Part shown: positions 1 to 5,811 of the stretch, piece by piece | Layout of the letters: the number at the start of each line of letters is the position of its first letter | Position numbering within the stretch: position 1 is the stretch's first letter | DNA from: Erysipelotrichaceae bacterium | GTDB taxonomy: Bacteria; Bacillota_I; Bacilli_A; Erysipelotrichales; Erysipelotrichaceae | Reading direction: 5' to 3' | DNA length: 6,146 nucleotides | Assembly (NCBI GenBank): GCA_030533035.1 | Contig: JAUNJW010000132.1 | Coordinates: forward strand, 1-6,146 | The notes under the pieces: generated by a model | What the model was told of the DNA's origin: nothing | Databases searched by the model: none | Seen by the model: the letters and a program-made list of their open reading frames with translations, nothing else | Position numbers and translations under genes: made by a program

Positions 1-120
1 TCCGGCCAGTATGTGCTGCTGGTGCTCAAGCTTGGCTATTTCACCAATACAACCTACGGCTATATCAAGTGGACGAAGTATATCCGCGAACACAAACCGG
101 CGGAAGCGTCGGTATTCTGA
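1..120 (+). CDS. pnuC: C-terminal fragment of a PnuC-like membrane transporter (5' end outside window)
   Basis: Frame 1 is open from the window edge to a TGA at 118-120, giving the last 39 residues of a protein. The fragment is a hydrophobic helix (YVLLVLKLGYFTN) followed by TTYGYIKWTKYIREHK and a short polar tail. An aromatic helix followed by a [NT]xxYGYxxW motif and a basic end is typical of the final membrane segment of PnuC-family transporters, which move nicotinamide mononucleotide/riboside or related vitamins across the cytoplasmic membrane. Only the end of the protein is visible, so the substrate cannot be judged, and another small polytopic membrane protein is possible. No terminator lies between this stop and the efp promoter, so transcripts of this gene could run on into efp. 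Confidence 0.55.
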   Translation, partial: SGQYVLLVLKLGYFTNTTYGYIKWTKYIREHKPAEASVF

Positions 121-214: not shown

Positions 215-772
215 ATGGCTATTGAAGCAGGCGATTTTAAAACAGGCTTAACAGTACTCGTTGACGGCGACCCCTGGGTTGTCCTGGACTTTATGCATGT
301 AAAGCCCGGCAAAGGCGCAGCGATCCTCAAGACAAAGATGAAGAACCTGAGAACAGGTTCCACACAGGAAAGAAACTTCAACGCGTCCACAAAGTTTGAC
401 GCCGCTCCGATCGAAAAGAAGATCGTCAACTTCTCCTACAGCGTTGACGGCATGTACACATTCATGGACATGGACACATATGAGACCTATGACCTGGATG
501 AATCAAAGATCGGCGATGACAAATACTACATCACAGATGGTCTGGAAGTTTCACTGGTTATGTTCGAAGGCCAGGTTCTGAACGTTCAGCTGCCGGCTAC
601 AGTCAACCTCACAGTTGAAGAAACAGCTCCGGCGATCAAGGGCGCACCGAGCACTCAGACAAAGGACGCCACAACCGACACCGGTCTGACACTCAGAGTT
701 CCGCAGTTCATTTCCCCGGGTGAGATGATCGCGGTTTCCACATCTGACGGAAAGTACGCAGGAAGAGCCTGA
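215..772 (+). CDS. efp: Translation elongation factor P
   Basis: A 185-residue EF-P, the usual length. EF-P is a cytosolic, tRNA-shaped factor that binds between the ribosomal P and E sites and relieves stalling at consecutive prolines. The N-terminal KOW-like domain (about 1-64) carries DFKTGLTVLVDGDPW and HVKPGKGAA; the middle OB domain is about 65-127 (IEKKIVNFSY..., YYITDGLEVSLVMFEGQ) and the C-terminal OB domain about 128-185 (LPATVNLTVEETAPAIKG..., VPQFISPGEMIAVSTSDGKYAGRA). The loop-tip lysine is K33, equivalent to B. subtilis K32, in a PGKG context. In B. subtilis that residue carries 5-aminopentanol, unlike the beta-lysyl lysine of E. coli or the rhamnosyl arginine of Pseudomonas. 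It has its own promoter and leader hairpin; a terminator overlaps its stop codon, and a YmfI/FabG-like dehydrogenase follows 20 bases later. Confidence 0.97.
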   Translation: MAIEAGDFKTGLTVLVDGDPWVVLDFMHVKPGKGAAILKTKMKNLRTGSTQERNFNASTKFDAAPIEKKIVNFSYSVDGMYTFMDMDTYETYDLDESKIGDDKYYITDGLEVSLVMFEGQVLNVQLPATVNLTVEETAPAIKGAPSTQTKDATTDTGLTLRVPQFISPGEMIAVSTSDGKYAGRA

Positions 773-787
773 TCAAGGCTCTTTTTT
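763..787 (+). terminator. Intrinsic terminator overlapping the efp stop codon
   Basis: AAGAGCCT (763-770) pairs with AGGCTCTT (776-783) around a 5-base loop, and T782-T787 supplies the T-tract. The left arm consists of the last efp codons plus the first base of the TGA stop, so a ribosome finishing efp would cover it. The next start codon is at 793, only 5 bases past the T-tract. Any transcript for the downstream gene that starts at the efp promoter must read through this site. Confidence 0.8.
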
Positions 788-792
788 GTCTT

Positions 793-1542
793 ATGAAAAA
801 CAGGACTGTATTGATCACCGGCGCTGCCGGCGGGATCGGCTCCGCGATTGCCCTCAAACTGGCGGAGCAGGGCTATGACATCGTTCTTAACTACAATCAC
901 TCCGAGGAAGCGGCCAGACAGCTGCAGGAAAAGATTTTCTATGACTGCCATGTCCGCTGCCTGGCCATCCAGGCCGACGTCGCTGATGAAACTTCGGTGG
1001 ACAGGATGGTAAAGACCATCGAGCAGCAGCTCGGCGGCGTGGATATCCTGATCAACAATGCCGGCATTGACATGCCCAACCTGTTCCATCTGAAAACGGC
1101 GGATGAGTTCAGAAGGGTGCTCGACGTCAATGTCGTCGGCGCCTACAACTGTGCCAAGCGGGTTTGCACATACATGCTGAAGCAGGAGTATGGCAGGATC
1201 ATCAACATCTCCTCCACCAACGGCATCAACACCTATTACCCGATGTGCCTCGACTACGACGCCTCAAAGGCGGCGCTGATCTCCTTAACCCACAACCTGG
1301 CCATCCAGTTTGCCCCGTATGTGACAGTCAACGCGATTGCCCCGGGCTTTATCGGAACCGAAAAGGAACTGGCCGGCTATGATGAGGAATTCCTGAAGCA
1401 GGAAACAGAAAAGATCCTCGTCGGCCGCTGCGGCAAGCCGGAGGAGGTCGCTTCCCTGGTCTCCTATCTGATTTCAGACGAAGCCTCCTTCATCAACAAT
1501 TCTGTCATCCGCATTGACGGCGGTCAGACAGGCAGCGTTTAA
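793..1542 (+). CDS. FabG-like short-chain dehydrogenase/reductase; candidate EF-P 5-aminopentanone reductase (YmfI-like)
   Basis: A complete 249-residue classical SDR of the FabG group, cytosolic, NAD(P)H-dependent. Visible features: cofactor motif TGAAGGIG (9-16), LNYNHS after the second strand (32-37), AD at 61-62, NNAG (88-91), structural N113, catalytic S141 (ISSTNG), Y155 and K159 (YDASK), PG after strand six (184-185), and IDGGQTG at the C-terminus. FabG reduces 3-oxoacyl-ACP, but no fatty-acid genes are nearby. The upstream neighbour is efp, and in B. subtilis the FabG-like YmfI reduces the 5-aminopentanone on EF-P to 5-aminopentanol; the N-terminal part (ITGAxGGIG, GY, YN, AA spacing) resembles what I recall of YmfI. 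The assignment to that role is inference. The start is set by the family N-terminus; no proper ribosome binding site precedes it (only AAGG 14 bases upstream, inside the efp terminator), suggesting translational coupling or reinitiation. Confidence 0.88.
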   Translation: MKNRTVLITGAAGGIGSAIALKLAEQGYDIVLNYNHSEEAARQLQEKIFYDCHVRCLAIQADVADETSVDRMVKTIEQQLGGVDILINNAGIDMPNLFHLKTADEFRRVLDVNVVGAYNCAKRVCTYMLKQEYGRIINISSTNGINTYYPMCLDYDASKAALISLTHNLAIQFAPYVTVNAIAPGFIGTEKELAGYDEEFLKQETEKILVGRCGKPEEVASLVSYLISDEASFINNSVIRIDGGQTGSV

Positions 1543-2970: not shown

Positions 2971-4212
2971 TCAGTTCTGTCCGCCCCAGTCGGCAGCCAG
3001 ACGGTCTTTCAGATTCTGAAGTTCTTCCTCGCTGAGGCCAAGACCCAGGATGTATTTTTCCGCGTACGGTGTCAGCGGCTCATCTTCCCCGAGTTTTGTA
3101 TAGGAACTGATCTTGAAGGCGTCGAGAATCTGGTGGATGATGATGGCCGAGATCCTGTCATATGTCTCAGCGCCCTTGGTGACATTGTAGAAGTTGTAGT
3201 AGGTGATCATGTAGTCATCCACGATTTCATCCAGGTCAGCGCCCATCAGGCCTTCCAGGACGCCGCAGATGAATCCGGTGCGGTCTTTTCCTTCCAGGCA
3301 GTGGATCAGATACGGTCCTTCATGGCCGGCAATGAACCGGAGTCCTTCCGCCAGCTTTTTCCTGTTGTCTTCAGCGGTGATGTCCATGCTCATGGCGAGC
3401 GGGATGATCTCGCATCTGGAATAATAGGAAGAGCTGAAATCCGGGAATTCCTTCATTTCCTTTTCATAATCAGCCAGGTTGATCACGGTCTTCACACCGT
3501 TGAGGGACAGCGCTTCATCCGCTTCCTTGTTTCTGCCGATCTTCGGATTGACAGGGGAGGAGGAGCGGTACAGGGTGCCTTTGCCCATGCCGGTGGTTTC
3601 AACAACCCGGAAGTTGCAGAATTCCTGGTCAGTGAGATCCGGGTAATCGGAACGCTCATTGGTGCGGGTCGCTGTCACCTTGTGAACCGCATACTCATCC
3701 GCGTAGCCCTGTTTTTCAAACATGGTGATCGTGACGGCCATATCTTTGTCCTTGCCTTCACGGTAGATCCATTCATAGCCCTTTTCATCATCGGTTTCAT
3801 TCTTGTCAGCCACTTCCATGGTTGTCGCAAGATTGCCGCTGGCAATCGCCAGTGTTGTATAGGGCGGATCGTTCTCCAGGTCATAGCGGCAGACCGGGCG
3901 GCCGGCGTCGACATCGGAGTAGTTGGTGCCGATCGGCATCTTCATATGCTTGCCGCCGATTTCCACATCGATGATATCAGCTTCTTCGTAGCCGTAGCCG
4001 ATCATGGCGTCGGGTTTGATTGTCAGGATAATATTTCCGTATTTTGAAATATCATAGATGCCGGCTTCAATGACAGGGACTTCACCCTCGCCGCCGCTGT
4101 AGGGCGTCGGATGATCATCCGGCTTCTGTTCCTGCTGTGAGCAGGCTGCAGTAAATACAAGCAGACCCGCCAGGGCAGCTTTCCAAATGTTTTTTAATCT
4201 TCTTTCAGACAT
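2971..4212 (-). CDS. Exported lipoprotein with C-terminal CX5R tyrosine/phosphoinositide-type phosphatase domain
   Basis: 413 residues from the ATG at 4212. The N-terminus is a lipoprotein signal peptide: basic ERRLKNIWK, a hydrophobic stretch, then FTAAC with the lipidated cysteine at about C24, then a polar linker rich in E, P and G. The C-terminal half (about 200-400) is a Y_phosphatase3/LipA-like phosphatase: LYRSSSPVNP (about 214-223), VINLAD (about 243-248), and the P-loop HCLEGKDRTG with nucleophile C305 and R311, the CxxGKDRTG pattern of Mycobacterium PtpB and Listeria LipA. These hydrolyse phosphotyrosine and often phosphoinositides. The middle (about 48-135; YGNIILTI, TNYSDVDAG, AIASGNLATT) resembles the C-terminal beta domain of SAM hydroxide adenosyltransferases; this is tentative. 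The protein should act outside the membrane, on an unknown substrate. The frame extends to a TTG at 4221, but AAAGAGG 9 bases before the ATG supports 4212. Confidence 0.88.
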   Translation of the reverse strand: MSERRLKNIWKAALAGLLVFTAACSQQEQKPDDHPTPYSGGEGEVPVIEAGIYDISKYGNIILTIKPDAMIGYGYEEADIIDVEIGGKHMKMPIGTNYSDVDAGRPVCRYDLENDPPYTTLAIASGNLATTMEVADKNETDDEKGYEWIYREGKDKDMAVTITMFEKQGYADEYAVHKVTATRTNERSDYPDLTDQEFCNFRVVETTGMGKGTLYRSSSPVNPKIGRNKEADEALSLNGVKTVINLADYEKEMKEFPDFSSSYYSRCEIIPLAMSMDITAEDNRKKLAEGLRFIAGHEGPYLIHCLEGKDRTGFICGVLEGLMGADLDEIVDDYMITYYNFYNVTKGAETYDRISAIIIHQILDAFKISSYTKLGEDEPLTPYAEKYILGLGLSEEELQNLKDRLAADWGGQN

Positions 4213-4221
4213 GTGACGCAA

Positions 4222-4353: not shown

Positions 4354-5811
<1,458 letters not shown>

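Follow-up and report, generated by a model that had tools for sequence, protein, structure and literature searches.

The stretch of Erysipelotrichaceae DNA analyzed here (6,146 nucleotides, hereafter the window) is contig 171 in a genome, G000, of 2.26 Mb, 407 contigs and 84% completeness, and it appears to hold a compact EF-P modification kit found in one order, two enzymes of which likely tag a lysine. That order is most likely Erysipelotrichales, as the top protein matches carrying an organism name stem from Erysipelotrichaceae, Solobacterium and Erysipelotrichales. We consider it highly probable that a lysine-tipped second EF-P, a FabG-like SDR and a YnbB-family enzyme constitute a conserved cassette and that the two enzymes first assemble a short carbon chain on K33 of this EF-P as its modification and afterwards reduce it. 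EF-P as the substrate and the chemistry itself are what we infer from sequence data, and the predicted EF-P-modifying role of the SDR is well supported by genomic context.

The efp gene (positions 215-772, plus strand) is preceded by a likely ribosome-binding site, AAGGAG, read from the sequence at positions 201-206 of the same strand. Its product scores 205.6 bits against TIGR00038, passing the cut-off of 185.8, and, as stated in an earlier note on this DNA, carries K33 in a PGKG loop, which reads HVKPGKGAA in full; profile, tree and tip residue characterize it as a lysine-type EF-P and the second EF-P of the genome. The same note had placed a complete FabG-type SDR 20 bases downstream of efp, in the same orientation, and this proved accurate. 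After a gap at positions 773-792, the gene at positions 793-1542 (plus strand) specifies a protein of 249 amino acids that matches PF13561 with 191.9 bits and contains both classical SDR motifs, TGxxxGxG (as TGAAGGIG) and YxxxK (as YDASK), with S141, Y155 and K159, of which Y155 and K159 are invariant in 24 sequences. On account of its own clade and its linkage to efp, it is predicted to act as an EF-P-modifying ketone reductase. Convergent to it, at positions 1607-2857 of the minus strand and not mentioned in the earlier note, lies the gene for a PLP enzyme of the YnbB family, the single PF06838 match in the genome (494.8 bits vs. a Pfam gathering cut-off of 24.2), whose best PDB match is 3hvy (E 1e-115), named 'YNBB B.subtilis ortholog'. 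The start of this gene is a TTG at position 2878 in the list of open reading frames; relatives start at the ATG equivalent to position 2857.

In agreement with the earlier note, no fatty-acid genes were recognized in the 6,146 nucleotides when the ORFs of the window were subjected to Pfam and profile searches. Apart from EF-P and SDR, the window encodes the PF06838 protein, a protein of Tyr-phosphatase type and a GH1 enzyme; two partial ORFs at its edges gave no Pfam match. The Tyr-phosphatase-type protein (2971-4221, minus strand) is lipoprotein-like with a PF13350 domain, and a gene 63% identical to its gene is located near the cassette at locus L331; the GH1 enzyme (4354-5808, minus strand) is a 6-phospho-beta-glucosidase (NF007154, 763 bits). 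Positions 1-120 (plus strand) contain the 3' end (39 codons plus stop) of a gene for a PnuC-type (PF04973) membrane transporter, recognized by tblastn through 79% identity to a full-length protein (L319:1464-2690) that matches PF04973 with 87 bits. PnuC-type genes are situated upstream of efp in 43 of the 64 loci whose sequence extends 150 bases or more 5' of efp, some of these loci sharing one genome and the distance amounting to 1.3 kb in L322. Promoter-like sites 5' of efp showed no excess over chance (2 found vs. 2.3 expected).

Among 40 relatives, the genome of the window included, the SDR is present in 24, the copy of the window sharing 65-77% identity with the other 23. In all 23 of these loci efp is located directly upstream of the SDR gene, with a contig end cutting efp in some of them, and ynbB is seen in 18 of the 23 within the sequence covered. 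The survey of efp-SDR adjacency proposed in the earlier note bore out the arrangement on a larger scale: efp lies directly 5' of the SDR gene in 47 of 48 cassette loci and, with each genome counted once, in 55 of 56, these being drawn from the 136 SDR-bearing genomes and having sequence 5' of the SDR at their locus (contig ends truncate four further SDRs). The sole exception is genome G331 (L307/L332); in L332 the SDR adjoins ynbB, yet no efp is found upstream within the sequence covered. Wherever the EF-P loop is readable at cassette loci, it is HVKPGKGAA (44/44). As to controls (flanks of about 1.5-4.5 kb), efp or ynbB occurs in none of 15 YmfI loci (flanks here of about 1.5 kb), none of 26 FabG loci and none of 78 FabG-like loci among the matches listed by a contig scan for the cassette beyond the order, which were mostly FabG-like loci (16 of the 26 FabG loci are also counted among the 78), and SDR or ynbB is found at none of 29 loci of the other, non-cassette EF-P. 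The adjacency of efp and SDR exceeds chance.

With regard to YnbB, presence was scored in 315 genomes of the order at E <= 1e-70 for the SDR and at E <= 1e-15 against PF06838 for YnbB. The SDR is present in 136 genomes and YnbB in 138, both occurring together in 133, the SDR alone in three, YnbB alone in five and neither in 174 (Fisher p = 2e-78, ancestry ignored). Contig ends truncate an SDR in four of the five YnbB-only genomes, and in one of the three SDR-only genomes a contig ends inside the SDR. Where both are present, ynbB is convergent within 300 bp in 88 genomes, convergent 0.3-10 kb downstream in 31, upstream on the same strand in four, farther off in two and on another contig in eight; 45 of the 133 thus have ynbB more than 300 bp away from the SDR or on a different contig, so that immediate adjacency is not by itself enough to account for their co-occurrence. 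The gene order ynbB, PnuC-type, efp, SDR, all on one strand, is seen in G394 and G144, and in two genomes of genus g3 (G025, G220) genes for a YaaO-type Orn/Lys/Arg decarboxylase and a SCIFF-maturase radical SAM protein lie between SDR and ynbB (families tested in L163, at L163:6109-8825, the decarboxylase being PF01276, OKR_DC_1; the genes in L321 are similar). Among the 40 relatives, the set with the SDR at 65% identity or more coincides with that containing YnbB at 450 bits or more (24 with, 16 without), and Pfam's own low cut-off yields PF06838 in 25 genomes, the additional one being a 32-bit partial match in the cassette-free G033. On the tree of the other EF-P (31 genomes) SDR and YnbB change together seven times when all branches are counted; independent contrasts on supported branches number three, all of which agree but which are too few for significance, and gene linkage eases joint loss of the two.

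EF-P matches were found in 37 of the 40 relatives. In 21 of the 24 cassette genomes another EF-P is present as well, while G006, G017 and G032 show the cassette EF-P alone; G032 is listed as 100% complete. Thirteen of the 16 cassette-free relatives possess exactly one EF-P, none of them Lys-tipped, and the remaining three (G001, G002, G009) gave no EF-P match. Phylogenetic analysis of 21 cassette EF-Ps and 31 others indicated two groups (support 100/100 and 100/98) with different tip residues: Lys in 21/21 cassette EF-Ps, and Met in 18, Arg in 13 and Lys in none of the 31 members of the other group. The latter includes the other EF-P of the source genome (contig 346, G000:C346:876-1421 = L140), a Met-tipped protein with the loop HNKTAMRQM. 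Loops in this group (L127-L161) read HNKTAMRQM (Met) and HNKTARAAA or QNKQGRLSG (Arg) and lack the proline that is usual there. Earlier publications already report Met tips as well as genomes with two copies of efp (PMC11611912, PMC6544042). Among the EF-Ps examined here, it is the lysine-tipped ones that travel with SDR and YnbB.

What is known of the EF-P modification pathway in Gram-positive bacteria comes from B. subtilis; several of the steps there are still unassigned (PMC5885033), and ynbB is required for EF-P 5-aminopentanolylation (PMC5885033; restated in PMC11381351). Following the step proposed for YnbB in that organism, the YnbB of the cassette would attach to the lysine, or form on it, a first unit bearing a ketone. 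The ketone would then be converted to an alcohol by the NAD(P)H-dependent SDR, a reduction of the type carried out by YmfI in B. subtilis. This functional analogy between SDR and YmfI rests on context, the SDR being below the YmfI cut-off.

The relation to YmfI is central to an alternative that we regard as unlikely, namely genuine YmfI orthology of the SDR, with the cassette producing the usual 5-aminopentanol and an unrelated aminotransferase standing in for GsaB. Against the YmfI profile NF047420 (cut-off 238) the SDR of the window reached 173.2 bits and the cassette SDRs L008, L012 and L030 reached 165, 165 and 153 bits; a search of 149 genomes of the phylum with this profile yielded no protein over the cut-off. 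In phylogenetic trees the cassette SDRs form a group of their own, supported with 96/99 in a tree of 71 rows (28 cassette SDRs) and with 100/100 in a tree of 78 rows (12 cassette SDRs), and in the latter YmfI constitutes a separate group (100/99), curated YmfI proteins stemming from 15 of 16 genomes reached via named loci. In the tree comparison with YmfI and FabG suggested by the earlier note, the SDR did not side with YmfI: it emerged as a third lineage in a clade of its own. By the AU test, one clade uniting cassette SDR and YmfI is not rejected (p 0.39-0.40), which, together with the lack of the FabG residue Arg172 in both, speaks for orthology. A plain YmfI orthologue was rejected on profile score and own clade, the AU test leaving the joint clade open, and the SDR probably is not YmfI but represents a separate FabG-like lineage. 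The proposal of the earlier note that the SDR is the EF-P-modifying reductase is upheld with respect to the tie to EF-P, through the conserved adjacency and the neighbouring ynbB, but not with respect to identity with YmfI.

The search for the other components of the pathway bears on the same alternative. In B. subtilis the genes for EF-P 5-aminopentanolylation are those for YnbB, GsaB and YmfI as well as YaaO, YfkA and YwlG, and GsaB is needed for EF-P modification. In the 84% complete source genome GsaB was not found: the sole PF00202 protein is of ArgD-type (407 bits, TIGR00707 cut-off 410) and is located among arginine genes, as named from sequence, and was rejected as a GsaB candidate on these grounds. 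PF00202 has no match in eight of the 24 cassette genomes; tests of the other 16 covered all but G004, G014, G021, G023, G026 and G039 and comprised 11 proteins from 10 genomes, of which nine are ArgD-type, one is nearest to PRK08117 (aspartate aminotransferase family) and one, from G036, is HemL-type and adjoins a HemB-like ORF (named from sequence). YwlG (PF04260) likewise had no match in the source genome, at the same completeness, and is over the cut-off in four of the 40 genomes, i.e., in one of the 24 with and in three without the cassette, and YfkAB (TIGR04478) is over the cut-off in none of the 40, G000 included. As GsaB, YwlG and YfkAB were not found in G000, 5-aminopentanol chemistry is doubtful, and it is unlikely that the complete pathway of B. 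subtilis makes the product. In favour of a 5-aminopentanol product, the search for aminotransferases was confined to PF00202, and another aminotransferase family could supply the amine; an amine-free EF-P product is a real possibility. A more far-reaching reading, with a probability somewhat short of even, is that of a self-contained EF-P kit: a lysine-type EF-P that would be gained or lost as a unit with a minimal pathway of two enzymes, YnbB and an SDR that would derive from FabG stock by a recruitment separate from that of YmfI, and that would receive a new, amine-free modification, on top of the Met- or Arg-tipped EF-P.

That the SDR serves metabolism or fatty-acid synthesis as a reductase and merely travels with efp appears improbable to us. 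The AlphaFold model of the protein (mean pLDDT 82.4, residues 142-151 and 92-97 of low confidence) has FabG as its best Foldseek match (2uvd, TM 0.89), and such a fold would be expected from either origin. The cassette SDRs are placed, weakly (85/85), among clostridial-type FabGs and not with YmfI in the tree of 78 rows. In addition, no second SDR was detected at E 1e-40 in 24 genomes of the window's genus, so that the cassette SDR could be the only ketoacyl reductase there; the FabGs of the order fall near that threshold and some could be missed, and this is weak evidence for an absence of FabG from the genus. On the other hand, the SDR of the window scores 206.1 bits against the FabG profile TIGR01830, below the cut-off of 297.75, whereas FabGs of the order (L035, L095, L031) pass it with 329-339 bits. 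Arg172, the FabG residue docking acyl carrier protein according to PMC8007833, is conserved in 17/17 FabG references (a fab neighbour was seen for 16) and found in 0/12 cassette SDRs and 0/12 YmfI proteins; the same column in 37 other FabG-like proteins holds Arg in 28, Lys in five and neither in four, so Arg172 is not unique to the role of FabG. Arg129, the other docking residue, has been retained by 11 of 12 cassette SDRs. The lack of Arg172 in the cassette SDR fits a substrate other than acyl-ACP, and no fab genes were seen near the cassette, either in the window or among the named neighbours at other cassette loci. Furthermore, 10 cassette-free genomes of the window's own genus are devoid of both SDR and YnbB.

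Genomes of the family f2, which belongs to the same order, speak further against a housekeeping function. Nine of its 10 cassette genomes carry a further, FabG-like SDR that is 36-40% identical; the three of these nine that were read (G025, G031, G036) are located between FabD- and FabF-like genes, and the two that were tested (L035, L095) pass the FabG cut-off. The same position is taken by FabG at the order's loci L031/L087, L032, L034, L035, L036 and L095, where the neighbours were named from their first residues and three of the six genomes have the cassette. The existence of genomes having both the cassette SDR and FabG points to two different roles. The SDR was accordingly rejected as housekeeping FabG by its TIGR01830 score, its lack of Arg172 and the separate fab-cluster FabGs of the order, and the earlier note's view that it is not a fatty-acid enzyme holds. 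A separate fabG, for which that note had recommended a search, is present in f2 in fab clusters (three loci read); in the source genome, 84% complete, none of the five other SDR matches was recognized as FabG, two of them and one fragment having been tested with profiles. The assignment to a third SDR lineage and the lack of a recognized FabG in G000 partly coincide with what the earlier note had named as evidence against its proposal, i.e., another SDR class that is the only FabG of the genome; we do not take this as a refutation because the genomes containing both enzymes point to two roles.

Very improbable, finally, is an action of YnbB and SDR on a small molecule, e.g., in sulfur or aluminium-resistance metabolism, with the EF-P link fixed by chance in one order: PF06838 proteins do carry annotations as methionine gamma-lyase or aluminium resistance proteins, but B. 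subtilis genetics links this family to EF-P, and the linked EF-P is the Lys-tipped one, the other having SDR or ynbB at 0/29 of its loci.

A further conserved element of the cassette, not mentioned in the earlier note, is a terminator-like hairpin (positions 760-786, plus strand; z -3.2) that overlaps the efp stop codon and is followed by a T run. The SDR gene starts 14-22 bases past the efp stop codon in 45 of 47 loci, the other two representing a truncated alignment and an overlapping start. Of the 48 loci, 46 were compared for the hairpin (L307 has no efp and L311 an overlapping start; several strings are identical and L010 was cut by hand): a stem of at least six pairs is present in 45, L023 having none, a run of at least four T follows the stem in 44, and a Shine-Dalgarno-like motif was found in none within the last 15 bases before the SDR start, that of the window included. 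Changes in the stem are two-sided (AGAGCCT/AGGCTCT, AGAGTTT/AAACTCT, AGAGCGT/ACGCTCT). Acting as a partial terminator, the hairpin would keep the SDR scarce relative to its abundant substrate EF-P. A ribosome halted on the stop codon of efp would sit over the stem, and translation-coupled read-through is therefore possible. We infer this regulatory role from the conserved sequence features.

Among the titles and opening abstract lines returned by searches of the open-licence PMC literature, none describes an efp-SDR-ynbB cassette, and nothing was returned on Erysipelotrich EF-P and polyproline or on an EF-P '5-aminopentanone reductase'. With the substrate and two enzymes side by side, apparently without GsaB, the cassette would render the roles of YnbB and the reductase testable in isolation, and close relatives with and without it, differing in their EF-P tips, provide a natural experiment on what the modified EF-P adds.

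The system resembles 5-aminopentanolylation in B. subtilis in its EF-P, which is lysine-tipped and has the same type of loop, HVKPGKG, in the YnbB family and in a FabG-like SDR as likely reductase; the EF-P loop of B. subtilis presumably is of this type, and that of S. aureus reads HVKPGKGSA. It differs in that the genes are clustered with efp, that the EF-P is a second copy, that the SDR is of another lineage and that GsaB, YwlG and YfkAB were not found in the source genome at its 84% completeness; ymfI, unlike the gene for the cassette SDR, is beside efp in 0/15 YmfI loci (flanks of about 1.5 kb). With FabG the cassette SDR shares the fold, the catalytic Tyr-Lys pair and 36-41% identity, and it is set apart by its own clade, the missing Arg172, a score below the curated cut-off and the replacement of the FabG GN-GQ-NY loop by NTYYPMxxDYD. 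A parallel in gene arrangement is efp-epmA-epmB (yjeA/yjeK), where the modifier genes are likewise clustered with efp and where some genomes encode two EF-Ps, one with Lys and the other with Ala or His (PMC2821294); the enzymes, however, are unrelated, and the chemistry there is beta-lysylation.
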